Origin: a virus | IMG/VR virus record: IMGVR_UViG_3300025669_001289 | Location: 1-26,227 of that record | Reading direction: 5' to 3' (one strand) | DNA length: 26,227 bases | Part shown: piece after piece, positions 6,874 through 26,156 of the stretch | How positions within the stretch are numbered: the first letter of the stretch is position 1 | How the letters are laid out: each line of letters starts with the position of its first letter | Notes under the pieces: generated by a model | Databases searched by the model: none | Told to the model about the DNA's origin: nothing | What the model saw: only the letters and a program-made list of their open reading frames with translations | Made by a program: the position numbers and the translations under genes

Positions 6874-6876
6874 AAT

Positions 6877-7134
6877 ATGGTAGCACCAAAAATGACAACA
6901 GATGAAAAACGTTGGCAAGCAGAAGGCGATGCTTATACTTTGATGCAAGCTGAGGAAGTTAAACTTGACAGAATTAGATTAAATGCAGCAAAGAGAGAAG
7001 TTAAAAAATTAGTTTCTAAGAAAGAAAAGGAATTGAATAGTGCTAAAAAAATTGCAGGTACAATAAAAAAGAAACCTGTAGTTAAGCGAAAACCTATAGT
7101 TAAGAAGAGAGTTACAAGAAAAACTAAAAAATAA
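6877..7134 (+). CDS. small basic head-module protein (85 aa)
   Basis: ATG preceded by AAAGGA at about 6863-6868. The first ~45 residues (TTDEKRWQAEGDAYTLMQAEEVK) form a helix-rich segment of a type that recurs in small proteins next to portal genes of gut and environmental phages. The second half is dominated by lysine and arginine (KKKPVVKRKPIVKKRV) and could bind DNA or the negatively charged scaffold. The precise function is unknown. It lies between portal and scaffold and is probably cotranscribed with them. Confidence 0.75.
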   Translation: MVAPKMTTDEKRWQAEGDAYTLMQAEEVKLDRIRLNAAKREVKKLVSKKEKELNSAKKIAGTIKKKPVVKRKPIVKKRVTRKTKK

Positions 7135-7187
7135 CAAAGGTAACGGACGTTATCTTAACCCTTATGGATGTGAGGAGAAAACAGAAT

Positions 7188-9648: not shown

Positions 9649-9742
9649 AGTGGGAATAGGGATGTACACCTGATAAGATGAGTTTTCCTGAACTTGTCTT
9701 TCCCACTAATTTTTAAATCAGGATTAAATCTACAGGAGGATT
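9649..9742 (+). promoter_or_regulatory. structured RNA leader of homing endonuclease 1
   Basis: AGTGGGAA (9649-9656) pairs with TTCCCACT (9700-9707) as a closing stem. Inside it are a short AGG..CCT hairpin, a TGATAAG linker and a longer stem, AAGATGAGTT/AACTTGTCTT, with loop TTCCTG. After the closing stem, AATC (9727-9730) pairs with GATT (9739-9742) and leaves the Shine-Dalgarno AGGAG in the loop. Leaders before 11827 and 13292 have the same plan. Confidence 0.65.
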
Positions 9743-9746
9743 GCAT

Positions 9747-11270
9747 ATGTTTGATATAAATAAAATAAGTAAAAGAAATAGGTATGATTTAAAAAAGTCT
9801 TTAAAGACTTATGTTGGTATTGAGGGTATTGATTATGTAGAATGCAAGATTTGCAAGAAGAGGAGTCTAAGTATAGATAAGAGACACCTCAAATCTTGGC
9901 ATAGTTTAACACTTGAAGAATACAAAATAGAGTTTCCTAATGCATGTATAGTTTCGGATAAAAAGAAAGAAATTCAAACTAAGTCAGCTATTGGAAATAA
10001 GTCTTGGCTAGGTAAAAAACTTTCTGATGAACATAAAGCTAAGTTGTCAGAATCTAAGAAAGGTAGTAAGAATCCATTTTATGGCAAGACACATAATAAA
10101 GAAACTACAGATAAAGCTTTAGTTACAAGAGTAAATACTGTATTAAAGAAATATGGTGTGAGTAATGTAATTCATATGCAGGAAGTTAAAGACAAGCTTT
10201 ATAAGATTAGAGCATATGATATAACATATATAAGAAATAAAATTGAATCAGTAAAAGGTTATAAACTTTTATCTAAAAATTATAAGAATATATATGGTAA
10301 ATTAAAAATAGAATGTCCTAACGGACACAAATTTAAAATGAGATATAATAATTTTCAATCGGGTCAAAGATGCCCAATGTGCTCAAATCATCACTCAAAG
10401 CCGGAATTAGAAATTTACAAAATTGTTAAATCCTATTTTAAAGATACAATCTCAGGTGACAGAAAAATACTGAGTGGTTTGGAACTTGATATATATGTAC
10501 CATCAAAGAAAGTGGCTTTTGAGTACTGTGGGTTATATTGGCATTCTGAGCAACAAGGTAAAGATAGAAATTATCATGTAAACAAACTCAATGAATGTAA
10601 AGAACAGGGTATTGATTTAATTACTATTTTTGAAGATGAGTATATAAATAGACAGGATGTAGTAATTTCGAGAATAAAAAACAAACTTGGTGTATCAGAT
10701 GCTGAAAGAGTATTTGCAAGAAAGTGTAAAATAAAAGAAATAGATCCTAAAACTAAAAATGTATTTTTAAATAAGTTCCATCTTCAAGGTGGGGATAGAT
10801 CAAGTATAAAACTTGGTGCATTTTATAATGACAAATTAGTATCAGTTATGACATTTTCAAAACCATCAATTGCTAAAGGGTTGAAGAATACTAAAGATAC
10901 TTATGAATTAAACAGATTTTGCTCAGACTCTAATTATATAGTTGTAGGTATTGCTTCTAAGTTGTTTAAGCATTTTGTCAGAAACTATGAATTTAATACT
11001 TGTTTTTCGTTTGGGGATAAACGGTGGAGTAATGGTGATGTATATAAAAAGTTAGGGTTTGAATTTGGGTATTGTACTAAACCTAATTATTGGTATATAA
11101 TTGATGGATGCAGAAAGCATAGATATAATTACAGAAAATCAGAGTTAAGTAAAAAGCTCGGCGTGTTTGATTCTAATCTTACTGAATATCAGAATATGTT
11201 AAATAATGGATTAGATCGAATATGGGATTGTGGATCTATAAAATGGGAATATAAGAAAGGAAGTTATTAA
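9747..11270 (+). CDS. EDxHD/Vsr-like homing endonuclease
   Basis: ATG at 9747 lies seven bases after AGGAGG (9734-9739); a TTG at 9741 would be too close. The 507-residue protein is modular. It has a MucR-like zinc finger (C33, C36, H47, H52, then LTLEEYKIEFP). A NUMOD3-type DNA-binding segment (GKKLSDEHKAKLSESKKG) follows. Next is a zinc ribbon (CPNGH...GQRCPMC), then a nuclease core with LELDIYVPSKKVAFEYCGLYWHSE and a following histidine, as in I-Bth0305I-type EDxHD enzymes. The C-terminal domain (YELNRFCSD..., GDKRWSNGDVYKKLGF, YNYRKSELSKKLG, RIWDCGSIKW) is common in such phage proteins. It would cut uninserted relatives of this locus. The zinc ribbon also occurs in the HNH proteins downstream. 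Confidence 0.85.
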   Translation: MFDINKISKRNRYDLKKSLKTYVGIEGIDYVECKICKKRSLSIDKRHLKSWHSLTLEEYKIEFPNACIVSDKKKEIQTKSAIGNKSWLGKKLSDEHKAKLSESKKGSKNPFYGKTHNKETTDKALVTRVNTVLKKYGVSNVIHMQEVKDKLYKIRAYDITYIRNKIESVKGYKLLSKNYKNIYGKLKIECPNGHKFKMRYNNFQSGQRCPMCSNHHSKPELEIYKIVKSYFKDTISGDRKILSGLELDIYVPSKKVAFEYCGLYWHSEQQGKDRNYHVNKLNECKEQGIDLITIFEDEYINRQDVVISRIKNKLGVSDAERVFARKCKIKEIDPKTKNVFLNKFHLQGGDRSSIKLGAFYNDKLVSVMTFSKPSIAKGLKNTKDTYELNRFCSDSNYIVVGIASKLFKHFVRNYEFNTCFSFGDKRWSNGDVYKKLGFEFGYCTKPNYWYIIDGCRKHRYNYRKSELSKKLGVFDSNLTEYQNMLNNGLDRIWDCGSIKWEYKKGSY

Positions 11271-11271
11271 T

Positions 11272-11382
11272 ATGCCAAACAGGGATGGTAAAGGCCCGAG
11301 AGATAGAAGTCGAAGGAAAGTGGGCAGAGGTTTAGGGAATTGCAAGAAAGCCAAAGTAAATAAAAATAAAAAGAAAAAATAA
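11272..11382 (+). CDS. DUF5320-like mini protein (36 aa)
   Basis: A 36-codon gene starting two bases after the endonuclease stop, with AAAGGAAG upstream. The product begins MPNRDGKGPRDRSRRKVGRG and continues LGNC, which follows the MPxxDGxGPxxxxxxTGRGxGxC pattern of DUF5320 proteins found in many anaerobes and phages. A lysine-rich tail follows. The function of that family is not known. The glycine/arginine content suggests a flexible nucleic-acid or particle-associated peptide. Given how well the N-terminal pattern fits, I consider it a real gene despite its size. Confidence 0.6.
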   Translation: MPNRDGKGPRDRSRRKVGRGLGNCKKAKVNKNKKKK

Positions 11383-11430
11383 AAGTGTACCTCGTGGGCA
11401 GTACAGGTTAAGCCCTTACCCGACATAGAG

Positions 11431-11448
11431 GGGGTAGTTTTCTACCCC
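11431..11448 (+). other. perfect hairpin before the 11476 gene
   Basis: GGGGTAG, loop TTTT, CTACCCC: seven perfect pairs, mostly G-C at the base. Only a weak TTCT follows, so it is either an inefficient terminator or a structural element in the leader (11383-11475) of the next gene. It is not the same design as the endonuclease leaders. Confidence 0.5.
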
Positions 11449-11475
11449 TTCTAACTTCAAGGATGTGATCTAAAA

Positions 11476-11715
11476 TTGTTATCCAATAAAACCAAAGATG
11501 GAAGTCTTGTATGGCCCAACACAACCGATGATATGGAAGACCTTGAGGAATGGAAACATGGTCAAACAGTGTATGGATCTTTTGCCAAACTCCATTCTGG
11601 GTTTAAGAATTATAGAGATGATATAAATAGAGCTTGGGGAAAAGAAAACGATTACAAGAAAAATACTTTATATGTAGATACGTTAAAATTAGTATCTGAG
11701 CAATTGAAACGATAA
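11476..11715 (+). CDS. hypothetical phage protein (79 aa, TTG start)
   Basis: The only available start is TTG at 11476, twelve bases after AAGGA (11459-11463); the frame is closed by TAA at 11452-11454. The product is acidic at the N-terminus (NTTDDMEDLEEW) and has an aromatic middle (HGQTVYGSFAKLHSGFKNY) and a helical end (YVDTLKLVSEQLKR). I do not recognise it. Its last residues (SEQLKR) resemble the very end of the HNH protein downstream (ISEQLK), which may be chance. It sits between two homing endonucleases and may be a native head-module gene flanked by insertions. Confidence 0.55.
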   Translation: MLSNKTKDGSLVWPNTTDDMEDLEEWKHGQTVYGSFAKLHSGFKNYRDDINRAWGKENDYKKNTLYVDTLKLVSEQLKR

Positions 11716-11734
11716 AAGCTAAAAGTGTAAATTC

Positions 11735-11822
11735 ATGTGGATAGAGTAGCTCTCGAAAAGAAGATTTCCTCATCTTCCTGCCACATTTTAAAAATTGAGG
11801 GCTAAATCATTGAGGAGTGATT
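11735..11822 (+). promoter_or_regulatory. structured RNA leader of homing endonuclease 2
   Basis: ATGTGG (11735-11740) pairs with CCACAT (11781-11786). Inside are the hairpin AGAG-TAG-CTCT, a CGAAAAG linker and GAAGAT-TTCCTC-ATCTTC. Downstream, AATCA (11805-11809) pairs with TGATT (11818-11822), placing GAGGAG in the loop just before the ATG at 11827. Confidence 0.65.
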
Positions 11823-11826
11823 ATAT

Positions 11827-12729
11827 ATGAGTAGGAAGAAATTACCATACAAAGATATAAAATATAGAATTGAATCTGTTGATGGTTATAAGTTATTAAG
11901 TACTGAATATACAGGTGCTCTTTCAAAACTTAAATTTATGTGTCCTGAAGGCCATATATTTTGGATGACTTGGAATAATTTTCAACGAGGGCAAAGATGT
12001 GCTGAATGTTATAGATTATCATTATGTTTAGATATTAATTATATAAAAGAACAAACGTCAATACTCGCCTTAGGTTATAAACTTATAAGTACTAAATATA
12101 TAAATAATAATGTTAAAATGAAATTTATATGCAATAAAGATCATACATTTAAAATGAGGTGGGCACATTTTCAACAAGGACGAAGATGTCCTGAATGTTA
12201 TAGATTATCACAATGTTTAGGTATTAAAGATTTACAAGAGCAAATCACAATAATTGCTTCAAGTTATAAATTATTGAGTACTAAATATGTAAATAATAAT
12301 ACTAAAATGGAATTTATGTGTGATAAAGGGCATACATTTTGGATGCGTTGGGGTGATTTTCAATTTGGTCAGAGATGCCCTGAATGCTATTATGAGTCTA
12401 AATGGAGAAGTTATACACCAGAAGAATTAGCTGAGTTACATAATTATAGAGCAGTAATAATTAAACTATCAGAGCAAAAATATAAAGGATACTATTATAA
12501 AATAAACCCAAATAGATTAAAACGTAGTAGATATGATTATCATCTTGATCATATTTATTCAATAACTGATGGGTTTAAAAATAGTATCCCCATGAAAGTA
12601 ATATCCAATCCTTACAATTTACAGATGCTCTGGTGGTCAGATAATATTTCTAAGTATGGTAATTCATGGCAAAGTAAAGAAGATTTATATAAAGGATATA
12701 TAAGATATATCAGTGAACAATTAAAATAA
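11827..12729 (+). CDS. HNH homing endonuclease with three zinc ribbons
   Basis: A 300-residue protein built from three tandem ~60-residue repeats and a C-terminal nuclease. Each repeat has the phrase GYKLLSTEY (or close), then C-x3-H-x14-C-x2-C. In the first the ligands are C39, H43, C58 and C61; the others follow at about 102-124 and 165-187. The HNH domain has YHLDHIYSITDGF (H239, D241, H242), SNPYNLQ and a final asparagine/lysine segment (DNISK). The ribbons would recognise DNA and the HNH would nick or cut it. It is closely similar to the protein at 13292 and shares one ribbon type with the nuclease at 9747. A free-standing homing endonuclease is the best reading. Confidence 0.87.
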   Translation: MSRKKLPYKDIKYRIESVDGYKLLSTEYTGALSKLKFMCPEGHIFWMTWNNFQRGQRCAECYRLSLCLDINYIKEQTSILALGYKLISTKYINNNVKMKFICNKDHTFKMRWAHFQQGRRCPECYRLSQCLGIKDLQEQITIIASSYKLLSTKYVNNNTKMEFMCDKGHTFWMRWGDFQFGQRCPECYYESKWRSYTPEELAELHNYRAVIIKLSEQKYKGYYYKINPNRLKRSRYDYHLDHIYSITDGFKNSIPMKVISNPYNLQMLWWSDNISKYGNSWQSKEDLYKGYIRYISEQLK

Positions 12730-12741
12730 AAGGAATAAAAA

Positions 12742-13191
12742 ATGGAAATATGTAAAATATGTGGCAAGGAATATACTAAAGTTAATGTACAGCATTTAAA
12801 AACTCACGACACAGATCAAGAAACTTATGACAAACTACCGGAATTTGTCCCAAAAAGAGTTACAATAACAGAAAAAGAAAAGAAAGAGGAAATTTTTGGG
12901 AAACCATTAGAGTCTATTGAAAAGCCATTAGAAGTATTCTTACATGAGTTTGGAATAACTGAAAAAGAATTACGGGAATTGGTTCGGTCTTATAAAACCG
13001 GAAATGCAATTGACGTAGTGCAGGATATAGAAAGAAAACAAAAAGCTGGGGAAAGACATGCAGAGCAACTGAAAGATGATGATATAGTTGAAACATCAAA
13101 ACTTTCAATTGCCGAAGTATTGGTAAAGAAATATGGGTTTACAGTGACTGCTGTTACTAAAAACCCTAAAATTTGGAAGTTAAAAAAATAA
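12742..13191 (+). CDS. C2H2/MucR-like zinc-finger phage protein (149 aa)
   Basis: AAAGGAAT precedes the ATG. The N-terminus carries a C2H2 finger: C4, C7, H18, H22 (CKICGKEYTKVNVQHLKTH), similar to MucR/Ros-type fingers and to the first domain of the nuclease at 9747. A charged helical middle (EKKEEIFGKPLESIEKPL...FGITEKELRELVRSY) and a small C-terminal alpha/beta end (VLVKKYGFTVTAVTKNPKIWKLK) follow. No nuclease motif is present, and it lacks the structured leader of the endonucleases, so it is probably a resident phage gene rather than part of a mobile unit. The function is unknown; DNA binding is likely. Confidence 0.65.
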   Translation: MEICKICGKEYTKVNVQHLKTHDTDQETYDKLPEFVPKRVTITEKEKKEEIFGKPLESIEKPLEVFLHEFGITEKELRELVRSYKTGNAIDVVQDIERKQKAGERHAEQLKDDDIVETSKLSIAEVLVKKYGFTVTAVTKNPKIWKLKK

Positions 13192-13199
13192 TTAAGTTT

Positions 13200-13289
13200 A
13201 TGTGGATAGGTTGGCCGCCGAAAAGAGGGACTCTCTTACTCTCCTTCCACATTTTAAATAACAAGAGTTAAATCATTAAGAGGTGATTT
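13200..13289 (+). promoter_or_regulatory. structured RNA leader of homing endonuclease 3
   Basis: ATGTGGA (13200-13206) pairs with TCCACAT (13246-13252). The interior has a short GG..CC hairpin, the same CGAAAAG linker as leader 2 and a less perfect second stem. Then AAATCA (13270-13275) pairs with TGATTT (13284-13289), with AAGAGG in the loop, right before the ATG at 13292. Confidence 0.65.
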
Positions 13290-13291
13290 GT

Positions 13292-14236
13292 ATGAGAAAA
13301 TTGTTATATGATGATGTAAAGAAACAGATTGAATCTGTTAATGGCTATAAATTGATAAGTACTGAGTATAAAAATTCACATGCTAAATTAAAAATTAAAT
13401 GTCCAAATAATCATGAGTATAAAGTAAATTTAGCAAATTTTAAATCAGGCAAAAGATGTCCTATATGTGCTTATAAAAATAAAGGTCGTTCACAAAGATT
13501 ATCTTTAGATTATATAAAAGGTAGGATTAAGATAATAGCATCTGGATATAAATTATTGTCTGTTAGTTATATAAATGCTAAAATTAAACTTAAATTTATG
13601 TGTCCCAAAGGTCATATATTTTGGATGACTTGGGATAATTTTAATAATGGAAGTAGATGCTCAGTATGTCATCGTTTAATATCTGTAAAGCGTCTTAAAG
13701 ATACAACATTAACTATAAAATACATTAGAGATAATGTTAAAATAATAGCTCCTACGTATAAGTTATTATCCACTAAATATGTTAATAATAATACTAAGTT
13801 GAAATTTATATGTCCTAAAGGTCATATATTTTATATGACTTGGGCTAATTTTCAAAGTGGTCAGAGATGTCCTTTATGTGGTGTAGAGAGTAGATCAGGA
13901 ATTAATCATTACAAGTGGAAAGATTATACAAATAAGGAATTACAAAGTTTTAAATATTATAAAGAATTTATAATGAGTGAATCTAATAGAAACTTTGGAA
14001 AGTATTATTATAAAATAAATAAAAATAGTTTAATAAGAAGTAAATATGAATATCATCTTGATCATATATACTCAATAATGGAAGGGTTTAGAAATAATAT
14101 ACCTCCTGAAGTATTATATAATCCCAATAACTTACAAATGATGTGGTGGAAAGATAATATAATAAAACAAGCTAAGTCAGGATGTACAAAAATAAAATTA
14201 TATTTAGGATATTATAAATATAAATTAGAAAATTAA
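13292..14236 (+). CDS. HNH homing endonuclease with three zinc ribbons (paralogue)
   Basis: The ORF extends to 13283, but ATG 13292 is correctly placed after AGAGG and matches the start context of its paralogue. The 314-residue protein has three ribbons: KCPNNH...GKRCPIC, MCPKGH...SRCSVC and ICPKGH...QRCPLC. The HNH domain follows (YHLDHIYSIMEGF, YNPNNLQMMWW, KDNI). Similarity to the 11827 gene is visible in DNA too, for example around the repeated phrase encoding GHIFWMTW, so the two arose by duplication or exchange recombination. It also shares the leader design. The following gene starts 16 bases after its stop with its own SD. Confidence 0.87.
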   Translation: MRKLLYDDVKKQIESVNGYKLISTEYKNSHAKLKIKCPNNHEYKVNLANFKSGKRCPICAYKNKGRSQRLSLDYIKGRIKIIASGYKLLSVSYINAKIKLKFMCPKGHIFWMTWDNFNNGSRCSVCHRLISVKRLKDTTLTIKYIRDNVKIIAPTYKLLSTKYVNNNTKLKFICPKGHIFYMTWANFQSGQRCPLCGVESRSGINHYKWKDYTNKELQSFKYYKEFIMSESNRNFGKYYYKINKNSLIRSKYEYHLDHIYSIMEGFRNNIPPEVLYNPNNLQMMWWKDNIIKQAKSGCTKIKLYLGYYKYKLEN

Positions 14237-16593: not shown

Positions 16594-18084
16594 ATGGATG
16601 AGAAATTCTATTTGGACGAAGAATGTGTAGTTAGTGCAAGTTTCGGAGAAATTGGTTGGTTTTTGCAGCACTATCAAAGTCGTATGAGATTTTTTGCAAA
16701 AGAAGTTTTTAAAGATAGAAAGATGATTATATTTACTGATATACAGAATTCAGTATTTCTTGATGATTTTGTATACGCTACTATAACATTACCAAAATGG
16801 TTCTATGATTTAAATCTCGATAGAGATTGTTATGAAGCAGTTGAAGTAGGATCTCATGGGGGTTCTTTAACACCACCAAAAGTGTATGCCGGGTTAATAG
16901 AATATATGAAACAATTCTATAATTCTGAAAAGGCTATAGAAATATTTCCACCTAGAGGTTATAATAAAGCTTGGGAGCATCAACCACAAATATTCTGTCA
17001 ATTTGAAACTGATAAACTTGAATTAAATAGACCTGTCATAGTTGTATTTCCTAGAGCAAAAGATAGAACTATTAATAGAAATGTACCAGAGTTTGTATGG
17101 TATGAGTTAGTTGAAAAATTAAAACAAAAAGTTGATGTAGTATTGGCCGGTATTCCAAATGGGGCTTGTTTGCAGGATTATGAAAGTGAAGGAGTTATAA
17201 ATTTAATAAAATATGATAAGCCAGATAAGACTAATAGAGTTATAACTTATTTAAACAATTGCTTATGTTCAATCTCAAGTCAGAGTGGTGGAACACATAT
17301 AAGTTTATTGTCAGGTGCAAATTCTTATATAATAGGGCATGAAAAAGAAAGACACACAGTAACTGAAAACAGATTAAATGTACCAACAAGTTTTAGGTTT
17401 GTATCAGACTATCGGGCCATAGATTCAGATACTATACTTTTAGATGTAGAAGAATTTTTAAATAGGTTAGAGGGTGCTGGTTATTTTCAAGTAGAGGTTG
17501 TAGATAGAAATAGACCGTCTTTAGGCGCATTAAGAGATAAAAAAGATTTGATTGGTGCTGAAATTGGTGTTTTTGAAGGACTTAATGCTTTAAGGATGCT
17601 GGAATCTTTAGATATTAAAAAGTTGTATTTAATTGATCCTTATAGTGACGCAGATTCTTTTGTAATAGAGAGAGATGTAGACAATGTAGAGAAATCTTGT
17701 AAGGATAGATTAAAAGACTTTGATAGTAAGATTGTTTGGATTAGAAAGAAAGCCGAAGATGCAATAGAGGATATAGTAGATGAGTTAGATTTTATAAATG
17801 TTGATGGTGATCATAGGTATGAAACAGTTAAGAAAGAAACAGCATTATATTATCCAAAATTAAAAGATAATGGATTAATGTCATTCCATGATTTTGATGC
17901 CCCTGATGAGAAAAATGGGGTTGTACAAGCAGTAACAGAATATTTTCAGAAATTAAATATTCCAATCTATAGTCAGATTTGTCCAGATGATCCAAGGACA
18001 AGAGAAGGTTGGATTTTTAAAATATCAAATAAAACTTATGATGGTATAATTAATAATTCTATAAATACTCTAAAGACTTTATAA
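16594..18084 (+). CDS. GT9-like glycosyltransferase fused to a SAM methyltransferase
   Basis: Two domains in 496 residues. The first ~300 have a GT-B/GT9-like look: PVIVVFPRAKDRTINRNV as the start of the donor-binding half, VDVVLAGIPN, and ISSQSGGTHISLLSGAN, which corresponds to the donor-site loop DSGxxHLAxxxG of heptosyltransferases. The last ~180 residues are a class I methyltransferase of the Methyltransf_24 type. Motif I is GAEIGVFEGLNA, followed by LYLIDPY and FINVDGDHRYETV. Methylation of a transferred sugar is a plausible combined role. It opens the glycan operon, and its TAA overlaps the ATG of hddC. A heptose acceptor or donor is only an inference from the neighbouring genes. Confidence 0.75.
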   Translation: MDEKFYLDEECVVSASFGEIGWFLQHYQSRMRFFAKEVFKDRKMIIFTDIQNSVFLDDFVYATITLPKWFYDLNLDRDCYEAVEVGSHGGSLTPPKVYAGLIEYMKQFYNSEKAIEIFPPRGYNKAWEHQPQIFCQFETDKLELNRPVIVVFPRAKDRTINRNVPEFVWYELVEKLKQKVDVVLAGIPNGACLQDYESEGVINLIKYDKPDKTNRVITYLNNCLCSISSQSGGTHISLLSGANSYIIGHEKERHTVTENRLNVPTSFRFVSDYRAIDSDTILLDVEEFLNRLEGAGYFQVEVVDRNRPSLGALRDKKDLIGAEIGVFEGLNALRMLESLDIKKLYLIDPYSDADSFVIERDVDNVEKSCKDRLKDFDSKIVWIRKKAEDAIEDIVDELDFINVDGDHRYETVKKETALYYPKLKDNGLMSFHDFDAPDEKNGVVQAVTEYFQKLNIPIYSQICPDDPRTREGWIFKISNKTYDGIINNSINTLKTL

Positions 18085-18785
18085 TGCAAGTAGTTATATT
18101 AGCTGGTGGTTTAAGTACACGATTAGGAAATATAACAAAAACTATTCCTAAATCTATGGTATTATTTAATAATAAGCCTTTTATAGAATATCAAATAGAA
18201 GAATTAATTTTAAATGGTGTAACTGATATAATTATATGTGTTGGATTTCTCAGTAAAAAAATAATTAATTATTTTGAAAATTCTAAATATAAAAAATTCA
18301 TAAAATTTAGTTATGATGGGAAACAGCAGCTAGGAACTTTTGGGGCAATTACAAATGCTAAATCTATACTTAATGATTTCTTTTTTGTAATGTATGGAGA
18401 TTCTTTTTTAAGAATTAACTATAAAAAAATGTATTTACAATTTATACATTCTCCTACAACATTAATGTTATCTGTATATAGAAATAATAATAAGATAGAT
18501 AAAAGTAATATTGATTATAAAGATGGTAGAATTTTTGATTATAACAAAAATAATAATAATTTTCAATATATAGATTACGGTGCTTTCTTAATAGATAAAT
18601 CTTTAATAGATAAATATTGTTTATTTAGAAATCATGAAGATGTTTTTAGAGAAAATGTATATAATAAAGATATATTAGGGTACGAAGTATTTGATAGATT
18701 TTATCAAATTGGATCTATTGACGGTATCAATGAATTTAAAAAATATATAGGTAAACACTATGATAGTAACACAAACACCCTTTAG
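18084..18785 (+). CDS. hddC: sugar-1-phosphate nucleotidyltransferase, probable heptose-1-P guanylyltransferase
   Basis: The 233-residue protein has the nucleotidyltransferase signature LAGGLSTRL (6-14), PKSM (22-25), the LGTFGAI strand-loop (83-89) and the metal-binding YGDSF (104-108). Sequence alone fits several sugar nucleotidyltransferases (mannose-1-P, glucose-1-P and heptose-1-P types). Directly downstream genes encode heptose 7-phosphate kinase, heptose bisphosphatase and sedoheptulose 7-phosphate isomerase. In Aneurinibacillus, Campylobacter and Yersinia the HddC/HddA/GmhB/GmhA set makes GDP-D-glycero-alpha-D-manno-heptose, so HddC is the natural call. GGLSTRL departs slightly from the usual GGxGTRL. 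It overlaps the upstream stop (TAATG) and the next gene by 26 bases. Confidence 0.78.
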   Translation: MQVVILAGGLSTRLGNITKTIPKSMVLFNNKPFIEYQIEELILNGVTDIIICVGFLSKKIINYFENSKYKKFIKFSYDGKQQLGTFGAITNAKSILNDFFFVMYGDSFLRINYKKMYLQFIHSPTTLMLSVYRNNNKIDKSNIDYKDGRIFDYNKNNNNFQYIDYGAFLIDKSLIDKYCLFRNHEDVFRENVYNKDILGYEVFDRFYQIGSIDGINEFKKYIGKHYDSNTNTL

Positions 18786-19737
18786 AATTACTCTTGGGGG
18801 AGGTGGAACTGATTTAAGACCTTATTATTCTAAACATGGTGGTATTATTGTATCAGTAGCTATTAATAAATTTATGTATATTTTTCTTAATACACCTTTT
18901 GATAAAAAAATAAGAATAAAGTATTCAAAATCAGAAGTAGTAGATAAAGTTGAAGAGTTAGAACACAAATATGCCGGTGCACTATTAAACTATGTTGGTA
19001 TAAAAGAGTCTATTGATGTTGTTTCTCTTGCAGATATTCCGGCAGGTACTGGATTAGGTTCTTCTAGTTGTTATGCAGTCGGTATGCTAAATGGTTTATA
19101 TACTTTAAAGAATAATGTTATCAATTTAAAAGAGTTAGCAGAGAAAGTCTGTAATTTAGAAATGAATATAATGAATTTGCCTGTTGGTAAACAAGATCAG
19201 TATATGGCAACTTTTGGGGGATTAACACATTTAGATATAAATAATAATGGTGAGGTTATAATAAATAAACTTAATATTTCAGAAGATAATAAGAAAACTT
19301 TAAACAGGAATTTAATATTATTATATACTAATACTGTTAGGGATTCTAATATTATTCTAAAAGAACAATCTGAAAATATAGAGAGTAATAATAAAATAGT
19401 TAATATGCATTGTATAAAAGATATTGGGTATAAGATTTTGGATGCAATAAATACTAGTAATTTTGATGATATAGGTATACTTTTTGATGAACACTGGAAT
19501 TTTAAAAAGAAAATGTCTACTAAAATGACTAATCCCTTATTTGATAAACTGTATAATATAGCTACTAAGAATGGGGCATTGGGTGGTAAAATATCTGGTG
19601 CTGGTGGTGGTGGCTTCTTTCTTTTTTATGTACCAACAAAACATGAAGAGTTTATAAATCATATGACTAATTTAGGATTAAGGCATATAGATTATAAATT
19701 TGAATCATTTGGTACAAAGGTGATAACTAATGCATAA
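18760..19737 (+). CDS. hddA: D-glycero-alpha-D-manno-heptose 7-phosphate kinase
   Basis: GHMP-family kinase of 325 residues. It has the N-terminal RITLGGGGTDL typical of HddA-like kinases (GGGGTDL at 13-19), the ATP loop PAGTGLGSSS (94-103), GKQDQY (143-148) and the C-terminal GHMP motif GGKISGAGGGGFF near residue 275. HddA phosphorylates D-glycero-D-manno-heptose 7-phosphate at C1 to the 1,7-bisphosphate. Fucokinase-like relatives share the fold, but the run of heptose genes fixes the assignment. Overlaps of 26 bases upstream and 8 bases downstream indicate tight translational coupling. Confidence 0.85.
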   Translation: MIVTQTPFRITLGGGGTDLRPYYSKHGGIIVSVAINKFMYIFLNTPFDKKIRIKYSKSEVVDKVEELEHKYAGALLNYVGIKESIDVVSLADIPAGTGLGSSSCYAVGMLNGLYTLKNNVINLKELAEKVCNLEMNIMNLPVGKQDQYMATFGGLTHLDINNNGEVIINKLNISEDNKKTLNRNLILLYTNTVRDSNIILKEQSENIESNNKIVNMHCIKDIGYKILDAINTSNFDDIGILFDEHWNFKKKMSTKMTNPLFDKLYNIATKNGALGGKISGAGGGGFFLFYVPTKHEEFINHMTNLGLRHIDYKFESFGTKVITNA

Positions 19738-20227
19738 AGTTATATTTTTTGATAGAGATGGAATTATAAATAAGTTTCGTACAGATACTCCTGTAATTAA
19801 TGATAAGTTTGATTTTATGGATGGTATCAAATCTTTATTTCAAATTTCTAAAACTCTTAATTATTTAAGAATCGTAATTACTAATCAACCAGACATCTCT
19901 CGTCATTTAATATCTCAAAAGGAACTATATAGAGTAAACTATAATTTTTTAAAATATATTGATGATATCTACATTTGCCCACATTCTGATAAAGAAAATT
20001 GTTATTGTAGAAAACCTAAACCCGGCTTATTAGAAATAGCAGCTATAAAGTGGAATATAGATAAAGATAAATCTTATTTTATTGGTGATTCTTGGAAAGA
20101 TATAAAAGCTGGTGAATTATTTGGATGTAAAACTATTTTACTTAATACAGATTATAATAGAAATGAGGAAACAACTCCTGATTATAACATTAACTCATTA
20201 TTTGAAATGAAGGATATTATAGGTTAA
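19730..20227 (+). CDS. gmhB: D-glycero-D-manno-heptose 1,7-bisphosphate 7-phosphatase
   Basis: HAD phosphatase of 165 residues, close to GmhB/histidinol-phosphatase size. Motif I is FFDRDGIIN with nucleophile D8 and acid/base D10. Motif II is ITNQ (50-53), and motif III/IV are K95 (CRKPKPG) and GDSWKD (119-124). The GmhB zinc loop is complete: C83, H85, C91 and C93. It removes the 7-phosphate of the heptose bisphosphate made by HddA, giving the 1-phosphate for HddC. The start overlaps hddA by 8 bases and the gmhA start follows by 3. Confidence 0.9.
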   Translation: MHKVIFFDRDGIINKFRTDTPVINDKFDFMDGIKSLFQISKTLNYLRIVITNQPDISRHLISQKELYRVNYNFLKYIDDIYICPHSDKENCYCRKPKPGLLEIAAIKWNIDKDKSYFIGDSWKDIKAGELFGCKTILLNTDYNRNEETTPDYNINSLFEMKDIIG

Positions 20228-20230
20228 ATT

Positions 20231-20812
20231 ATGTCTTATATGAATGAATATTTTAAAGAAGTAGTAAAAGCATGTAATAATTTAATTGAATCTGAATTAG
20301 ATAATATGATAGATATTATCTATACTATCAAAAAAAATAAAGGTAGATTATTTTTTATTGGTGTTGGTGGTGGAGCTGGAAATTCTTCTCATGCAGTTTG
20401 TGATTTTAGAAAGTTAGTTGGTATAGAATCTTACTCAGTAACTGAGAATATTCCAGAATTAACTGCACGTATAAATGATGAAGGCTGGAATACAGCATTT
20501 TCAGAATCTTTAAAGAGTAGCAATTTGTGTGATAAAGATGGTATATTTGTTTTCTCTGTTGGTGGTGGCTCTATAGAACAAAATGTTAGTGTAAATATTA
20601 TTGAGGCTGCAAAATACGCTAAAAGCGTTAATGCTAAGATACTTGGTATCGTTGGTAGAAGTAAAGGATACATAGCACAAAATTCTGATTCCTGTATAAT
20701 AATAAATTGTGATAATAAATTTATTACACCTATGACAGAATCGTTTCAAACTTTAATATGGCATATGCTTGTTACAAGTCCGAAATTACAATCCTTCAGT
20801 ACAAAATGGTAA
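20231..20812 (+). CDS. gmhA: sedoheptulose 7-phosphate isomerase-like SIS protein
   Basis: SIS-domain protein of 193 residues. It has the sugar-phosphate loop GVGGGAGNSSHA (44-55), the second serine-rich loop SVGGGSIEQN (109-118) and TESFQTLIWH (169-178), with a glutamate and histidine where GmhA places catalytic residues. GmhA converts sedoheptulose 7-phosphate to D-glycero-D-manno-heptose 7-phosphate. The FRKLVGIESY and ELTARINDEGW segments occur in SIS isomerases of surface-glycan clusters and differ from E. coli GmhA, so the exact substrate is set by context. The downstream transaldolase supplies the expected substrate. Confidence 0.8.
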   Translation: MSYMNEYFKEVVKACNNLIESELDNMIDIIYTIKKNKGRLFFIGVGGGAGNSSHAVCDFRKLVGIESYSVTENIPELTARINDEGWNTAFSESLKSSNLCDKDGIFVFSVGGGSIEQNVSVNIIEAAKYAKSVNAKILGIVGRSKGYIAQNSDSCIIINCDNKFITPMTESFQTLIWHMLVTSPKLQSFSTKW

Positions 20813-20823
20813 AGGATAATACT

Positions 20824-21516
20824 ATGACTATTTTTATAGATTCCAGCAATTTAGGAGAAATTAAGAAATATCACAAACTTGGTATTATAAGAGGAGTTAC
20901 AACAAATCCAACAATTCTATTAAAAGAAGGTATAGAAAAACATAAAATTAAAGATCATATCAAGTCTATAGCAGATACAGTTAATCCATATCCTGTTTCT
21001 GCAGAAGTTACTTCAAATGTTTTTGACGATATGATAAAAGAAGCGATAGCAATTTCTAAAATTGCTTCAAATATAAATATTAAAATTCCAATACATGGCC
21101 CAAATGGTGAATTAGAGAATTTAGAAGTAGTAAAGTTATTAACTAAAGAAGGTATATCTATTAATGTAACTGCTATGATGAGTGCACAACAGTGTCTGTT
21201 AGCAGCTCTTAGTGGAGCAGATTATGTATCATTATTTGGCGGCAGAGTAAATAATATGGGATATAATTGTATAGATGAAATTAAAAAAATTAGAGTATTG
21301 CTTGACTCAATACCAGAATTAAATAATACAAAAATAATTATGGGTTCATCAAGAGAAGTTTTAAATATTATCGAGTGGTTGGTGGTTGGTGCAGATATTA
21401 TAACTGTATCACCATCTTTAATTGAAGGTATGCTAGTTCATCCATATAGTAAAGAAACTGTACAAATGTTTATGGAAGATGCTAAAACAATGGGGGGTGC
21501 ATGGATAAATATATAG
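20824..21516 (+). CDS. tal: transaldolase (TalC/FSA-type)
   Basis: The open frame extends back to 20758 inside gmhA, but ATG 20824 follows AAAGGA (20812-20817), which overlaps the gmhA stop, and gives a clean N-terminus (MTIFIDSSNL). The 230-residue product is a small-subunit transaldolase: D6, TTNPT (26-30), Schiff-base lysine K87 in INIKIP, and ADYVSLFGGRVNNMG. It moves a dihydroxyacetone unit between sugar phosphates and can form sedoheptulose 7-phosphate. Cyanophages carry TalC for host carbon flow; here the location among gmhA, gmhB, hddA and hddC suggests precursor supply for heptose instead. The stop overlaps the next gene by 16 bases. Confidence 0.88.
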   Translation: MTIFIDSSNLGEIKKYHKLGIIRGVTTNPTILLKEGIEKHKIKDHIKSIADTVNPYPVSAEVTSNVFDDMIKEAIAISKIASNINIKIPIHGPNGELENLEVVKLLTKEGISINVTAMMSAQQCLLAALSGADYVSLFGGRVNNMGYNCIDEIKKIRVLLDSIPELNNTKIIMGSSREVLNIIEWLVVGADIITVSPSLIEGMLVHPYSKETVQMFMEDAKTMGGAWINI

Positions 21517-22424
21517 TTATAGTTGGGGTACTGGATACTATTAGTTCTTCAAATGTTTGGCTTGCTAATAGTTTTAAAAGAAATAATATAAAAGTAATAC
21601 CAATAAATTATAGAGATATAGTAAAAACTAAAGGTAATGAATTTTTAAGTTCTTTATTAGTTTATACTTTGAAAAAATATAAACCAATGTTAACTATATT
21701 TTGTAAATGTAATGGTATAGATCCAAAAATAATCCTTAATTGTAATAATTACTCCAAAACCTTTTTATGGTATATGGATTCACATCATATATTAGAGTCA
21801 AATAAAGAAATAATAGAAATTGCTAAAAATTGTAATTTTACATCTTGTACATCACCTACAACAGTTACTTATTTAAAAGACAAAGGTGTTAAAAATTGTA
21901 TTCATATTTTTGAAGGATCAGATCCAGATGTTCATTATCCTGTGGAAAAAAATGATAAGTATAAATCATATATTTCATTTATAGGATCTCAAACACAAGA
22001 ACGTAATGATATTTATAAACAACTGATTAATTATAATTTTACTACTAAATACTATGGGAATGGTTACTCTGGAAGAATTTCTATAGATGCGTGGCGAATT
22101 ATCTGCTCAAGTTCTAAAATAATGCTTTCATTGAATACATTTAACGATATACCACATTACTTTAGTGGTAGAGTTTTTGAATATATGGCATGTGGTGCAT
22201 GTGTAGCACATTATGATAAGACAAATACTATGAAAGCCTATTTTAATGATATGGAAGAAATAATTTTATTCAAAACAGTAGATGAATTATATAATAAGTT
22301 AAAAGATTTATCTGATGAAGATTTAGGAAAAATAGCTTTGAGGGGAAGAGATACTGTATTAAATAATTTTACTTTTGATCATGCTACTGCTTATATTTTA
22401 AATAGTCTTGGAGTTACTAAATGA
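21501..22424 (+). CDS. GT-B glycosyltransferase (CgeB/Glyco_trans_1-like)
   Basis: A 307-residue protein with a GT-B arrangement. The N-terminal half ends in FLWYMDSHHILESNKEI and ATTVTYLKDKGV-like segments that resemble acceptor-side domains of CgeB-like proteins. The C-terminal half has SFIGSQTQERNDIY and the diagnostic RVFEYMACGACVAHYD, the donor-phosphate glutamate region, followed by an ILFKTVDELYNKLKDL closing helix. The start overlaps the transaldolase gene by 16 bases, the end overlaps the next by 4. Sugar donor and acceptor are not determined; GDP-heptose from the adjacent genes is a candidate donor. Confidence 0.82.
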   Translation: MDKYIVIVGVLDTISSSNVWLANSFKRNNIKVIPINYRDIVKTKGNEFLSSLLVYTLKKYKPMLTIFCKCNGIDPKIILNCNNYSKTFLWYMDSHHILESNKEIIEIAKNCNFTSCTSPTTVTYLKDKGVKNCIHIFEGSDPDVHYPVEKNDKYKSYISFIGSQTQERNDIYKQLINYNFTTKYYGNGYSGRISIDAWRIICSSSKIMLSLNTFNDIPHYFSGRVFEYMACGACVAHYDKTNTMKAYFNDMEEIILFKTVDELYNKLKDLSDEDLGKIALRGRDTVLNNFTFDHATAYILNSLGVTK

Positions 22425-23110
22425 AAAAATTATTAATAGCTACTCGTGCAAATTCAAATATTAAAGAGATGACTGATATAACACATCCAGTTTTAAAGAT
22501 GTATGCTGAAAAATGTAATGCTGACTTTAAAGTTATAGATAAAGATATTGAGGGACTACATCATCATTGGAGAATATTAAATTTTTATAATTTATTTGAT
22601 ACATATGATAGAATTTTAAGTTTAGATAGTGATGTATTAGTATTAAAGAAGTGTCCAGATTTATTTAAGTTAGTACCAGATAATATGATTGGATCTATTT
22701 TTGAAGATGTAGGTAGTAGAAAAGACCATAGGAGAAAAACTATAAATGATATACAAAAAGAAAGAGGTAATGTTGGTTGGGAATCAGGATATATTAATAC
22801 TGGTGTAGCTTTATTTTCTAAAGAACATAAAGAAGTATTTAATGCTGATAGGAATAATCTTTGGGAAGAGCCTGGATTTGACGATGTAGAATTAAGATAT
22901 AGAAGTATTCAGTTGGGATTTAAAGTATATGAACTTCCTTATCAATTTAATCATATGGTAATGTTTACTGAAAAATGGAATGGAATGGCAAATAGGGCTA
23001 ATAGTAATATAATACACTATGCAGGGCAAGGAAAATTTTCTAGACATAAAAATAGAACAGAACAGATTAAATATGATCATTTAATACTAAAAAGGTATAA
23101 TTTAATATGA
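22421..23110 (+). CDS. GT-A glycosyltransferase (GT8-like)
   Basis: 229 residues with a GT-A nucleotide-sugar fold: an N-terminal LLIATRANSN strand-loop, the metal-binding DxD at D69-S-D71 (LSLDSDVLVL), GYINTGVALFSKEH and the C-terminal NIIHYAGQGK histidine motif. The order DxD, NTGV, HY..G is that of GT8-type retaining transferases, although the protein is short. It has an ATGA overlap with both neighbours, so the four glycosyltransferase genes are one translational unit. The donor is unknown. Confidence 0.8.
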   Translation: MKKLLIATRANSNIKEMTDITHPVLKMYAEKCNADFKVIDKDIEGLHHHWRILNFYNLFDTYDRILSLDSDVLVLKKCPDLFKLVPDNMIGSIFEDVGSRKDHRRKTINDIQKERGNVGWESGYINTGVALFSKEHKEVFNADRNNLWEEPGFDDVELRYRSIQLGFKVYELPYQFNHMVMFTEKWNGMANRANSNIIHYAGQGKFSRHKNRTEQIKYDHLILKRYNLI

Positions 23111-24042
23111 ACATACTTTTTCTATTTGATGGTTATAGGCGTAGAGATGATAGAACTAGAGTTAATTTAATAAAGAAATTAACTAAATTTTGTAATTTTA
23201 TTATTTATGGCCCCAATGAAACTGATAAAACTTTTTCACCATATAAATATAATGATAAAAGTAATATATTAAAATTGTTTAAACCTGATGTTATACTTTG
23301 TTCTTTATACAATGAAAACTGTTTAAGTTGGATTCCTAATTATATATATGAATCTGACATACCTGTGGCTGTTATAGAAGAAGACCATTATACAGAAGAT
23401 GAAGTTTTTGGGTTTGAAAAAAGTATTTTAAGAGGTTATAATAAATTTGATTTAATTGTAAGAAGGCATTATTATAGTGAAGAACAAAATTTAAACTCAG
23501 TTTGGTGGCCTTTTGCAGCGAATACAGATGAATTTTTTGATGATCAAACTATTAAACGTAAAAATTTAATTTTCTTTTCTGGAAGTATACACTCACCCTA
23601 TTATAGCATAAGAGAAAAAGCTATTGAGACATTGTTAACTGCTAAATTAATAGAACCATATAATCAAATTGATAATTACCCACTACGTCTAAGGGATTTT
23701 GTTGGTGCTTTATCATGTGCTGGTGGTACAATTCATACACCGATGGCCAAAGCGTTTGAAACTATATTAAGTGGTACTGCATTGCTTACAAATTATATGT
23801 ATAATGATAAAATATTATTTGGTGATAAACAGTGTTACTTTGAATACAAAGATGATTGTTCAGATATTGTAGAACAGGCAGACATAATATTAAATGATAA
23901 AGATTATGTTGCTGAAGTAACAAAGAATGCTATGGAAGTTGTTAAAAAAAGACATACTGATGAATGTAGAATAGAAGAATTATTTGACATATTAAAAGCC
24001 TTAGTATATGGAGAAGACATACCTAAAATATGGGGGCAATAG
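23107..24042 (+). CDS. GT-B glycosyltransferase (CgeB-like)
   Basis: A 311-residue protein with an N-terminal Rossmann-like start (MNILFLFDGYRRRDD), a middle containing AVIEEDHYTEDE and VWWPFAANTDEFF, which is the linker pattern of CgeB-like transferases, and a C-terminal donor domain with LIFFSGSIHSPYYSIRE and TPMAKAFETILSGTALLTN. The last phrase takes the place of the E-x7-E donor motif. It is similar in layout to the 21501 protein and probably adds a sugar to the same glycan. The stop is TAG. Confidence 0.75.
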   Translation: MNILFLFDGYRRRDDRTRVNLIKKLTKFCNFIIYGPNETDKTFSPYKYNDKSNILKLFKPDVILCSLYNENCLSWIPNYIYESDIPVAVIEEDHYTEDEVFGFEKSILRGYNKFDLIVRRHYYSEEQNLNSVWWPFAANTDEFFDDQTIKRKNLIFFSGSIHSPYYSIREKAIETLLTAKLIEPYNQIDNYPLRLRDFVGALSCAGGTIHTPMAKAFETILSGTALLTNYMYNDKILFGDKQCYFEYKDDCSDIVEQADIILNDKDYVAEVTKNAMEVVKKRHTDECRIEELFDILKALVYGEDIPKIWGQ

Positions 24043-24044
24043 TA

Positions 24045-24770
24045 ATGATAAAAAATAGATTTGTTATTTATTCTGCAGGATATAATTGTAGTAAGTATGT
24101 AAAACGTTGTATGAATAGTATACAATCACAGAAATACACTGATTATATACATATAATAGTTGATGATGCATCAATAGATGAAACATATAATACCATAGTA
24201 CAAAATAGAGATCCTAACACTGTTGTATTTAAGGCATCAGAAAATGTTGGATGGCTTGCCAACTCAATGAAGTACCTTTGTTATAACTTAAATGATATAA
24301 TTATGCTTGTTGATCTAGATGATTTTTTGCCACACAACAATGTTTTAAATATGATAAATAAAGTGTATAATATATACAATTGCTGGTTAACATATGGTAG
24401 TTTTTTATGGTTAGGTAAAAATATAAATGAAGGTACTGCTTATCCAGATAGTGTTATTAAAAACAAAACATTTAGAGAGTATGATTGGAGAGGAGTTCAT
24501 CCACAGACTTTTAAAGGTTTTCTTTGGAGTAATATTAAAAAAGAAGACTTACAGGATAATGATGGTAATTATTTAATGTCAGCATATGATGTAGCTATTA
24601 TGCATCCAATGTTAGAGATGTCACCACCAGATAAAATAAAATTCATAGGAGAGACTTTATATGTTTATGATAATACTAATCCATTAAATATTGGAAAAAT
24701 GAGAAAACATGAACAAATAAATAATGAAAAGTTAATTAGAAGTAAACAGAAATATGAGGAACTAATATGA
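24045..24770 (+). CDS. family 2 glycosyltransferase
   Basis: An ATG at 24030 lies inside the preceding gene; ATG 24045 is ten bases after a GGGGG run and begins MIKNRFVIYSAGYNCSKYV, the standard GT2 opening. The 241-residue protein has the nucleotide-binding VDDASIDET (39-47) and the metal-binding DLDDF (90-94). The rest (WRGVHPQTFKGFLWSNIKKEDL, then SAYDVAIMHPMLEM) matches the acceptor half of GT2 enzymes, where an ED-like acidic pair acts as base. It is a cytoplasmic inverting transferase with no membrane segments. The ATGA overlap couples it to the radical SAM gene. Confidence 0.85.
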   Translation: MIKNRFVIYSAGYNCSKYVKRCMNSIQSQKYTDYIHIIVDDASIDETYNTIVQNRDPNTVVFKASENVGWLANSMKYLCYNLNDIIMLVDLDDFLPHNNVLNMINKVYNIYNCWLTYGSFLWLGKNINEGTAYPDSVIKNKTFREYDWRGVHPQTFKGFLWSNIKKEDLQDNDGNYLMSAYDVAIMHPMLEMSPPDKIKFIGETLYVYDNTNPLNIGKMRKHEQINNEKLIRSKQKYEELI

Positions 24771-25831
24771 AAATAGCTTTGTTAACCGCTAAACCAAATG
24801 CAGACAGTCTGATGTATAACCATAAAATGAGCACTGATGAACGTAGGTATCCAACGGGTATTGGGTATTTATATGAAATTTTAAGACAGAGTGGAATAGA
24901 GGCAGAAATCTATGATAGATATAGTGGTAATACTACTTTTGATTTTTCAGTCAGATATGATTTTGTAGGAATTTACTGTGCTTCTGTATGTACAAATGAT
25001 ATTAAATTTATTATAGATAACGTAAAAGCTGATAAAATAGTAGTCGGTGGACCACACGCTTATTTATTTCCGGAGTGGTTTAGTCCAAAAGTAGATTATA
25101 TAGTACAAGGCGAAGCAGAAGAAATAATTGTTGATCTTGTAAATGGTGAGTATGGGGAAAGAATAATAAAAATTGATAGACTTGATAATGCTTCTTTAAA
25201 TAAACTACCAAGATTTCCATATAAATATTTTTGGGATAACCAAGAGGGGTATGTTTGGGATTTTCCATTTTCTAATACTAATCCTGTATTTATGTTAAAT
25301 ACCTCAAGGGGTTGTCCTTATTCATGTTCATTTTGTAGTGTTAAAAATATATGGGGGCATAAACTAACATCATTTTCTGCTGAAAGAGTATTTAGTGATA
25401 TAGAATATGTTAAGTCTCTTGGGGCAAAAGGTATATATTTTAGAGAAGATAATTTTACAGTTAATAAAAAAAGATTACTCAAGATATGCAACTATATGAC
25501 AGGGGCTGGATTAGAATGGGCTTGTGAAGCTAGAGCAGATTCTATTAACGAAGAGACAGCTAAAGTAATGAGTAAGTCAGGATGTATCGGACTTTTTATA
25601 GGTGTAGAAAGTTTGTCACAACATATGTTAGATGTATTTAATAAAGATTTAACTGTGGGTCAGATAGTTAAATGTTTTGATCTAACACATAAATATGGAA
25701 TTAAAACGGCAGCATCAATGATAAAAAACCACCCAGAAGAAACTCAAGAGGATAAACAACAAACTGCTGCACTAATGGGAAGAATAAATCCTACACTGAA
25801 GTGGGTTAATCAATATAGGTCTGAGGGATAA
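24767..25831 (+). CDS. B12-binding-type radical SAM protein, short C-terminus
   Basis: The N-terminal ~150 residues have the Rossmann layout of a cobalamin-binding domain (YPTGIGYLYEILRQSG, IVVGGPHA, VDYIVQGEAEE) but no DxHxxG, so B12 may be bound base-on or not at all. The radical SAM core starts with TSRGCPYSCSFCSV: C183, C187, C190 in the CxxxCxxC pattern binding the 4Fe-4S cluster. It continues with GIYFREDNFTV and FIGVESLSQ. It stops at 354 residues just after NPTLKWVNQYRSEG, earlier than the related enzymes I know, and may be truncated. Candidate jobs are methylation or sugar rearrangement of the glycan. Confidence 0.82.
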   Translation: MKIALLTAKPNADSLMYNHKMSTDERRYPTGIGYLYEILRQSGIEAEIYDRYSGNTTFDFSVRYDFVGIYCASVCTNDIKFIIDNVKADKIVVGGPHAYLFPEWFSPKVDYIVQGEAEEIIVDLVNGEYGERIIKIDRLDNASLNKLPRFPYKYFWDNQEGYVWDFPFSNTNPVFMLNTSRGCPYSCSFCSVKNIWGHKLTSFSAERVFSDIEYVKSLGAKGIYFREDNFTVNKKRLLKICNYMTGAGLEWACEARADSINEETAKVMSKSGCIGLFIGVESLSQHMLDVFNKDLTVGQIVKCFDLTHKYGIKTAASMIKNHPEETQEDKQQTAALMGRINPTLKWVNQYRSEG

Positions 25832-25832
25832 T

Positions 25833-26156
25833 ATGCGACCATTCATAAAATACTTAAAAGAAAATACTACTAATGGATTAGTTGGCGCAGAGATCGGTGT
25901 CAAGCGTGGTGAAAATGCAGAAGATATATTAAACAATTTAAACATTGAAGCTTTATATTTAATTGATCCTTGGGAAGTTTATGATATAGAAAATGCTACT
26001 AATGAGGAAGTTAAAGTAGGATATACAAAGTTTATTACATTTAGTAATTGGCGTAGAGAAGTTTTTAATAAATTTAGAAATAATCATAAAGTATTTATAC
26101 ATCCACATACATCAAAAATGATGGCAAACAACATTCATTGGTACTTGGTAATTTAG
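25833..26156 (+). CDS. truncated SAM methyltransferase (Methyltransf_24-like)
   Basis: The first ~95 residues are a clear class I methyltransferase start: GLVGAEIGVKRGENA (motif I) and EALYLIDPW, close to the C-terminal domain of the 16594 protein (GAEIGVFEGLNA, LYLIDPY). The expected acidic motif (like FINVDGDHRY in the 16594 protein) never appears. Instead the frame runs through KMMANNIHWYLVI into a TAG at 26154-26156. Over the same bases another frame encodes a GDP-mannose dehydratase-like segment. The gene has therefore lost its 3' half by a deletion-type junction near 26110-26140, or the assembly is chimeric there. Confidence 0.65.
   Translation: MRPFIKYLKENTTNGLVGAEIGVKRGENAEDILNNLNIEALYLIDPWEVYDIENATNEEVKVGYTKFITFSNWRREVFNKFRNNHKVFIHPHTSKMMANNIHWYLVI

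Follow-up and report, generated by a model that had tools for sequence, protein, structure and literature searches.

Which activated sugar does a phage build when it carries five consecutive sugar genes, one of them encoding a transaldolase? The question is raised by the IMG/VR virus record IMGVR_UViG_3300025669_001289, which was analysed here over its whole length of 26,227 bases (referred to below as the window) and is probably a fragment. An initial annotation had read the genes at 18084–21516 as HddC, HddA, GmhB, GmhA and a TalC-type transaldolase, together making guanosine diphosphate (GDP)-heptose from central metabolites, and had considered the link between a transaldolase and heptose synthesis to be unusual. 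This first observation was right, but the gene set is neither unusual nor securely a heptose pathway. We favour, with little more than even confidence, a transaldolase-fed route to a GDP-bound higher sugar, most likely a GDP-octose of the lincomycin type. On our analysis, the cassette is a widespread module, and the nearest precedent for its function is the lincosamide antibiotics' octose module.

The enzymes of the block

The five genes are intact, lie on one strand and overlap or nearly so:

18084–18785, + strand: HddC/LmbO-type sugar-1-phosphate nucleotidyltransferase, a predicted guanylyltransferase (NTP_transferase, 61 bits)
18760–19737, + strand: HddA/LmbP-type GHMP sugar kinase, with predicted phosphorylation of C1 (NF049969 HddA, 168.6 bits)
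19730–20227, + strand: GmhB/LmbK-type HAD-IIIA phosphatase, predicted to remove the terminal phosphate (PRK08942, 104 bits)
20231–20812, + strand: SIS-fold ketose/aldose phosphate isomerase of a long-loop subfamily (assigned from fold, metal site and loop)
20824–21516, + strand: short transaldolase of the TalC fold (PF00923, 146 bits)

Searches with profile hidden Markov models bear out the five enzyme types (HddC, HddA, GmhB, a SIS protein of the GmhA fold and a transaldolase), with family matches for all except GmhA, for which the match is weak (33 bits). The catalytic residues, which the initial annotation had recognized as motifs in all five proteins, are intact. The kinase matches the solved HddA structure 3k85 (E 7e-43) and retains the GHMP motifs, and the phosphatase, whose solved relatives are GmhB 4pnh and 2gmw, retains the DRDG, TNQ, RKPKPG and GD motifs and the Cys-His zinc motif. 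The nucleotidyltransferase has an intact HddC-like motif (LAGGxxTRL..PKsM), and its best solved relative is 5xhw, a protein of the 6-deoxy-mannoheptose pathway. HddC is its best specific match in NCBIfam (85.7), but the scores for Arch_glmU (79.5) and MurU (70.8) are so close that nucleotide and sugar specificity are not fixed by them. Homologues of the HddA, GmhB and HddC enzymes of the GDP-mannoheptose pathway are all present, and all score below the curated equivalog cut-offs.

In the route that we favour, the transaldolase would transfer the three-carbon dihydroxyacetone unit from fructose 6-phosphate (or sedoheptulose 7-phosphate) to ribose 5-phosphate, yielding octulose 8-phosphate, which the long-loop SIS isomerase would convert into octose 8-phosphate. 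The GHMP kinase would then place a phosphate on C1, the HAD phosphatase would remove the phosphate from C8 and the nucleotidyltransferase would add GMP, giving GDP-octose, from which downstream glycosyltransferases would transfer the sugar to a host-surface or virion glycan. The sequences show the enzyme families, their intact residues, the phage location, the recurrent linkage and the features held in common with LmbN and LmbR; the chain length of the sugar, its nucleotide, its acceptor and its biological benefit are inferred.

The lincosamide octose module as a precedent

In lincomycin biosynthesis, LmbR takes a three-carbon unit from fructose 6-phosphate or sedoheptulose 7-phosphate and attaches it to ribose 5-phosphate (PMC5854111), and the SIS isomerase LmbN, the kinase LmbP, the phosphatase LmbK and the guanylyltransferase LmbO then lead to GDP-octose (PMC4351081, PMC12945683). 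LmbR, LmbN, LmbK and LmbO have been confirmed and the kinase LmbP is predicted (PMC4351081). The window encodes the same five enzyme types; its SIS protein has, like LmbN, a long phosphate loop and a Thr-Pro insertion, and its transaldolase has, like LmbR, an insertion after the catalytic lysine. The lincosamide module is part of an antibiotic cluster, whereas the set in the window lies in a glycan setting, and LmbN, unlike the SIS protein of the window, carries a carrier domain.

Lincosamide-type clusters were found in five Streptomyces genomes (L370–L374). The gene order of one of them, L373 (R-S-O-P-Z-N-M-L plus K), is the published lmb order, a carrier domain is fused in front of isomerase N, and gamma-glutamyltransferase and ABC-F genes lie nearby; its assignment as an lmb-type cluster rests on this gene anatomy. 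The long loop, here SVHGG..VS, and the Thr-Pro insertion are both present in the LmbN proteins of L373 and of the four similar clusters. The SIS and transaldolase proteins of L371, L372 and L374 form a divergent sub-branch, and these clusters are possibly unknown relatives of the lincomycin and celesticetin pathways.

The isomerase

The isomerase of the window had been taken for an ordinary sedoheptulose-7-phosphate isomerase. It scores 33 bits against the GmhA model, for which the cut-off is 209, and also falls under the Pfam gathering score. An AlphaFold model (83 sequences, mean predicted local distance difference test score 97) comes closest, among solved folds, to those of GmhA and the GmhA-like DiaA. 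The metal-site positions H54, D58, E170 and H178 correspond to H61, E65, Q172 and H180 of E. coli GmhA (zinc ligands after PMC5387315), and the metal and catalytic positions are kept in all 144 sequences compared. Because the fold and the metal site are kept, the protein could act on sedoheptulose 7-phosphate. The phosphate loop is another matter: it reads SVGGGSIEQNVS in the window (subfamily pattern SVGGG..VS) versus STSGNS in E. coli GmhA, and Thr166-Pro167 is inserted before E170. Both features are conserved in other members of the subfamily and occur in LmbN-type proteins, but not in E. coli GmhA or in short-loop SIS proteins. Judged from these sequence features, the isomerase belongs to a long-loop subfamily in common with LmbN and is not a standard GmhA. 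The Asp and Glu that replace Glu65 and Gln172 of E. coli GmhA were dropped as a diagnostic character, since they are also found in short-loop phage GmhA. In a tree built from all alignment columns, a single branch separates the long-loop and LmbN proteins from GmhA (support 100/98); KdsD was abandoned as a root because its branch was far too long.

A second, GmhA-like SIS protein is encoded beside a complete cassette in three loci (L122:2806-3360, L128:4021-4584 and L139:8267-8851). The catalytic histidine (His180 in E. coli) is replaced by Leu in these second proteins, which are possibly non-catalytic partners.

The transaldolase

The transaldolase gene starts with the ATG at 20824, not at 20758, and its AAAGGA ribosome site overlaps the stop of the SIS gene at 20812. 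The protein matches the transaldolase/fructose-6-phosphate aldolase family with 165 bits (solved relatives 1vpx, 3r8r and 3s0c), and residues D6, N28, E61, K87, T116, F138, R141, S175 and R177 are intact. It has the features of a transaldolase: a Schiff-base lysine (K87), an acid-base glutamate (E61), F138 in place of Tyr, and phosphate-binding R141, S175 and R177. Glu61 and Phe138 are as in 3s0c, 1vpx and 3r8r; E. coli fructose-6-phosphate aldolase has Gln and Tyr, a difference that we take to be the mark separating the two activities. All but one of the 140 cassette transaldolases retain Glu and Phe, and the presence of these two residues instead of Gln and Tyr rules out a fructose-6-phosphate aldolase in the window.

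After the catalytic Lys87, the window enzyme has a five-residue insertion. A four-residue insertion at this place is common to 137 of the 140 cassette transaldolases and to all four LmbR-type proteins, and is found in none of ten housekeeping, cyanophage or fructose-6-phosphate aldolase enzymes. In a phylogenetic tree, the window enzyme forms a group (support 100/99) with that of a second phage contig (L007) and with the cassette enzymes found in Planctomycetota and Rokubacteria. A clade of cyanophage, housekeeping and fructose-6-phosphate aldolase enzymes, the LmbR-type enzymes and the main cassette clade, which has 27 members, all lie apart from this group. The main clade corresponds to NCBIfam TIGR02134 (transald_staph), the cut-off of which is passed in 16 of 18 cassette genomes; the window enzyme is nearer to TIGR00875 and sits in the other cassette clade, the smaller of the two. 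Transaldolases of more than one lineage have therefore been taken up beside one SIS family, which suggests that it is the activity that matters.

This tree also rules out a cyanophage-type TalC, the link drawn in the initial annotation. Cyanophage TalC has, like the window enzyme, the short transaldolase fold, the lysine and the transaldolase-type Glu and Phe, but it forms a separate clade and lacks the insertion after the lysine. We know of no sugar-nucleotide genes beside talC in the usual cyanophage setting. On two lactobacillus plasmids (L404 and L405), a TIGR02134 transaldolase gene lies outside any nucleotide-sugar cassette, directly upstream of a mannose/fructose-type phosphotransferase system and beside a LacI regulator.

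Linkage of the gene set across viral and cellular genomes

Across about 190 loci of viruses, bacteria and archaea, the SIS subfamily adjoins a transaldolase in many gene orders; the linkage once thought unusual is in fact widespread. Among loci with enough flanking sequence, a transaldolase lies no more than 5 kb from the SIS gene in all 49 viral cases and in 48 of the 52 cellular ones. Cellular loci most often have the order HddA-HddC-SIS-GmhB-TalC, which extends over many phyla and to archaea (Methanoperedens, Methanospirillum). Viral loci most often have SIS-GmhB-TalC-glycosyltransferase-HddA, and there are over a dozen other orders. With viral HddA as the starting point, two kinds of locus appear, one with a long-loop SIS protein and a transaldolase, the other with an ordinary GmhA and no transaldolase (24/1 versus 1/27, near-copies removed). 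Among 136 SIS proteins whose genes are flanked by 3 kb or more on each side, a transaldolase accompanies 102 long-loop proteins and is missing beside 4, and accompanies 1 short-loop protein and is missing beside 29 (Fisher p 3.5e-24, a significance inflated by the relatedness by descent of the table's rows, the long loop having moreover been defined after looking at the data). The sole short-loop locus with a transaldolase also has a long-loop SIS protein. Gene fusions add support to the linkage: a viral contig (L063:7579-8838) encodes a 419-residue protein composed of a GmhB-type phosphatase (residues 8-161) and a TIGR02134 transaldolase (186-414), and a metagenome-assembled genome of Chloroflexi (L159:1062-2381) encodes a 439-residue fusion of a sugar nucleotidyltransferase with a long-loop SIS isomerase. 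A random sample of Pseudomonadota HddA proteins consisted mostly of kinases with no SIS gene nearby and held too few cassettes for statistics.

Which sugar is made?

A separate, real GmhA is encoded in 11 of 18 cassette genomes (126-216 bits, versus 42-63 for the cassette SIS proteins) and a second transaldolase-family gene in 12 of the 18. Since many owners already have both, a second entry into sedoheptulose 7-phosphate and heptose synthesis would be redundant. A supply of sedoheptulose 7-phosphate as the sole purpose would also predict transaldolases beside ordinary GmhA; this is seldom seen, which suggests a product that GmhA does not use. GDP-heptose, the product proposed initially, is thus not supported, and GDP-octose, itself unproven, fits the whole pattern better.

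Several points weigh against GDP-octose, in addition to the two limits placed on the contingency table above. The window kinase is 38-42% identical to heptose-type HddA versus 27% to LmbP, and the nucleotidyltransferase about 27-38% identical to HddC versus 21% to LmbO. LmbR has Gln and Trp where the window and other cassette transaldolases have Glu and Phe. The insertion after the lysine is also present in stand-alone TIGR02134 enzymes of lactobacilli, Treponema and a Streptomyces plasmid, and its occurrence in transaldolases outside cassettes weakens it as a mark of octose synthesis by itself. When the loop and Thr-Pro columns are left out, the SIS tree gives no decision for or against the grouping with LmbN (the tree held to that grouping lies 1.8 log-likelihood units above the free search, with a p-value of 0.58 in the approximately unbiased test), so the kinship of the two rests largely on the shared insertions. 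In the literature searched, octose from such a cassette is not reported, and GDP-octose was met only in a lincosamide review.

A heptose route with its own transaldolase, supplying sedoheptulose 7-phosphate, is the strongest alternative, and we consider it unlikely. The nearest relatives of the window HddA and HddC are enzymes of the heptose type, GmhA structures come closest to the SIS fold, in which the metal-site counterparts are kept, and for those cassette owners that have no other clear GmhA or transaldolase, a self-contained supply of sedoheptulose 7-phosphate would be sensible. The GDP-mannoheptose pathway has the same HddA, GmhB and HddC families and the SIS fold of GmhA; it has no transaldolase, however, and the window SIS protein falls under every GmhA cut-off and has an altered phosphate loop, which is that of LmbN. 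An ordinary GmhA hardly ever has a transaldolase as its neighbour, and this holds even for phages with HddA. Caulobacter phage Cr30 and Synechococcus phages SynMITS9220M01 and Bellamy have a phage-borne HddA, as the window does, and the first two also have a GmhA-type isomerase, that of Cr30 having a short loop, unlike the window protein. No transaldolase lies beside HddA in the stretches of these three phages that were read; the talC of SynMITS9220M01 lies outside the heptose region shown. No pairing of a transaldolase with GDP-heptose was found in the literature searched.

The sugar could also be another aldose, neither mannoheptose nor lincomycin octose, made from a different acceptor aldehyde phosphate or with another stereochemistry or nucleotide. 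We regard this as improbable. Transaldolases accept several aldehydes, the NCBIfam scores leave the sugar and nucleotide of the HddC-like enzyme unfixed, and two catalytic positions differ from LmbR; the LmbN-type loop nevertheless points to octulose 8-phosphate, and no particular other sugar is positively indicated. Still less credible is a chance neighbourhood of a cyanophage-like carbon-flow transaldolase and a non-enzymatic, DiaA-like SIS protein. Phage talC is well known in cyanophages and DiaA is among the fold neighbours, but the linkage recurs in many gene orders, viral and cellular, and with fusions, the transaldolase falls outside the cyanophage clade, and the SIS metal and catalytic positions are invariant.

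Viral setting and neighbouring genes

The phage setting proposed in the initial annotation is sound. The sugar genes begin at 16594, and upstream of them lie an endolysin gene, homing endonuclease genes and a head module:

3480–5327: TerL
5332–6873: portal protein
upstream of the sugar block: scaffold gene
8618–9577: major capsid protein

PF03354, a TerL family, was dropped as a phage marker because it was uninformative and the wrong family. Behind the major capsid gene, at 9741-14236, there are at least three genes for homing or HNH-type endonucleases with repeated zinc-ribbon-like modules. The second phage contig, L007 (59.5 kb), has HddA, HddC, SIS, GmhB and transaldolase genes adjoining its terminase and portal genes (52% identity to the window for TerL and 50% for the portal protein), with a LAGLIDADG endonuclease gene between SIS and GmhB (6669-7490). 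Although bacterial glycan loci often contain the set, the idea that bacterial capsule DNA was joined to the phage by misassembly, named initially as a refuting condition, is in practice excluded by L007, an independent contig with the same genes, an inserted LAGLIDADG gene and related TerL and portal genes. In further viral contigs, the cassette adjoins phage exonuclease and PhoH genes. The long-loop SIS protein was not found in an annotated phage collection; cultured phages may therefore not show the cassette.

The block is flanked by further genes, those for glycosyltransferases following it without a gap:

16594–18084, + strand: protein with a C-terminal Methyltransf_24 domain (PF13578, 50 bits)
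21501–22424, + strand: glycosyltransferase-like protein (Glyco_trans_1_2, PF13524, 65 bits)
22421–23110, + strand: glycosyltransferase family 8 (PF01501, 39 bits)
23107–24042, + strand: glycosyltransferase-like protein, weak (PF13524, 21.8 bits, below the gathering score)
24030–24770, + strand: glycosyltransferase family 2 (PF00535, 48 bits)

The position of these glycosyltransferase genes agrees with the role in activated sugar for glycans that had been suggested for the block, and the product of 21501–22424, to judge from its place, probably uses the block's sugar. At the end of the run, 24767-25831 encodes a radical SAM protein with a B12-binding domain, possibly a sugar-modifying enzyme. 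The gene at 16594–18084 abuts the block, and its membership is uncertain. A glycosyltransferase family 9 heptosyltransferase was considered for its N-terminal half and rejected, as the PF01075 search gave 11.8 bits (E 0.15), below the cut-off, and no viral relatives were found. Its C-terminal domain and a short open reading frame at 25833-26156 have a similar motif (GAEIGV..G.NA..L..L.I..LYLIDP), and because of this similarity the two may be paralogues.

Biological significance

If the product is a heptose, the supply of its precursor by a transaldolase has repeatedly been built into one nucleotide-sugar branch, an arrangement not described in the literature searched. The GDP-octose cassette has so far been known only as the sugar module of lincosamides. 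We propose tentatively, a little short of even confidence, that a mobile form of it is a general glycan-building module of phages, many bacterial phyla and archaea that has been systematically annotated as heptose synthesis, and that phages use it to decorate glycans of the host or the virion with an eight-carbon sugar. Should the octose prove true, hundreds of genes that are at present annotated as phosphoheptose isomerase or SIS-domain protein would have to be renamed, and a sugar thought to be peculiar to one class of antibiotics would turn out to be a frequent constituent of surface glycans and to be spread by phages.

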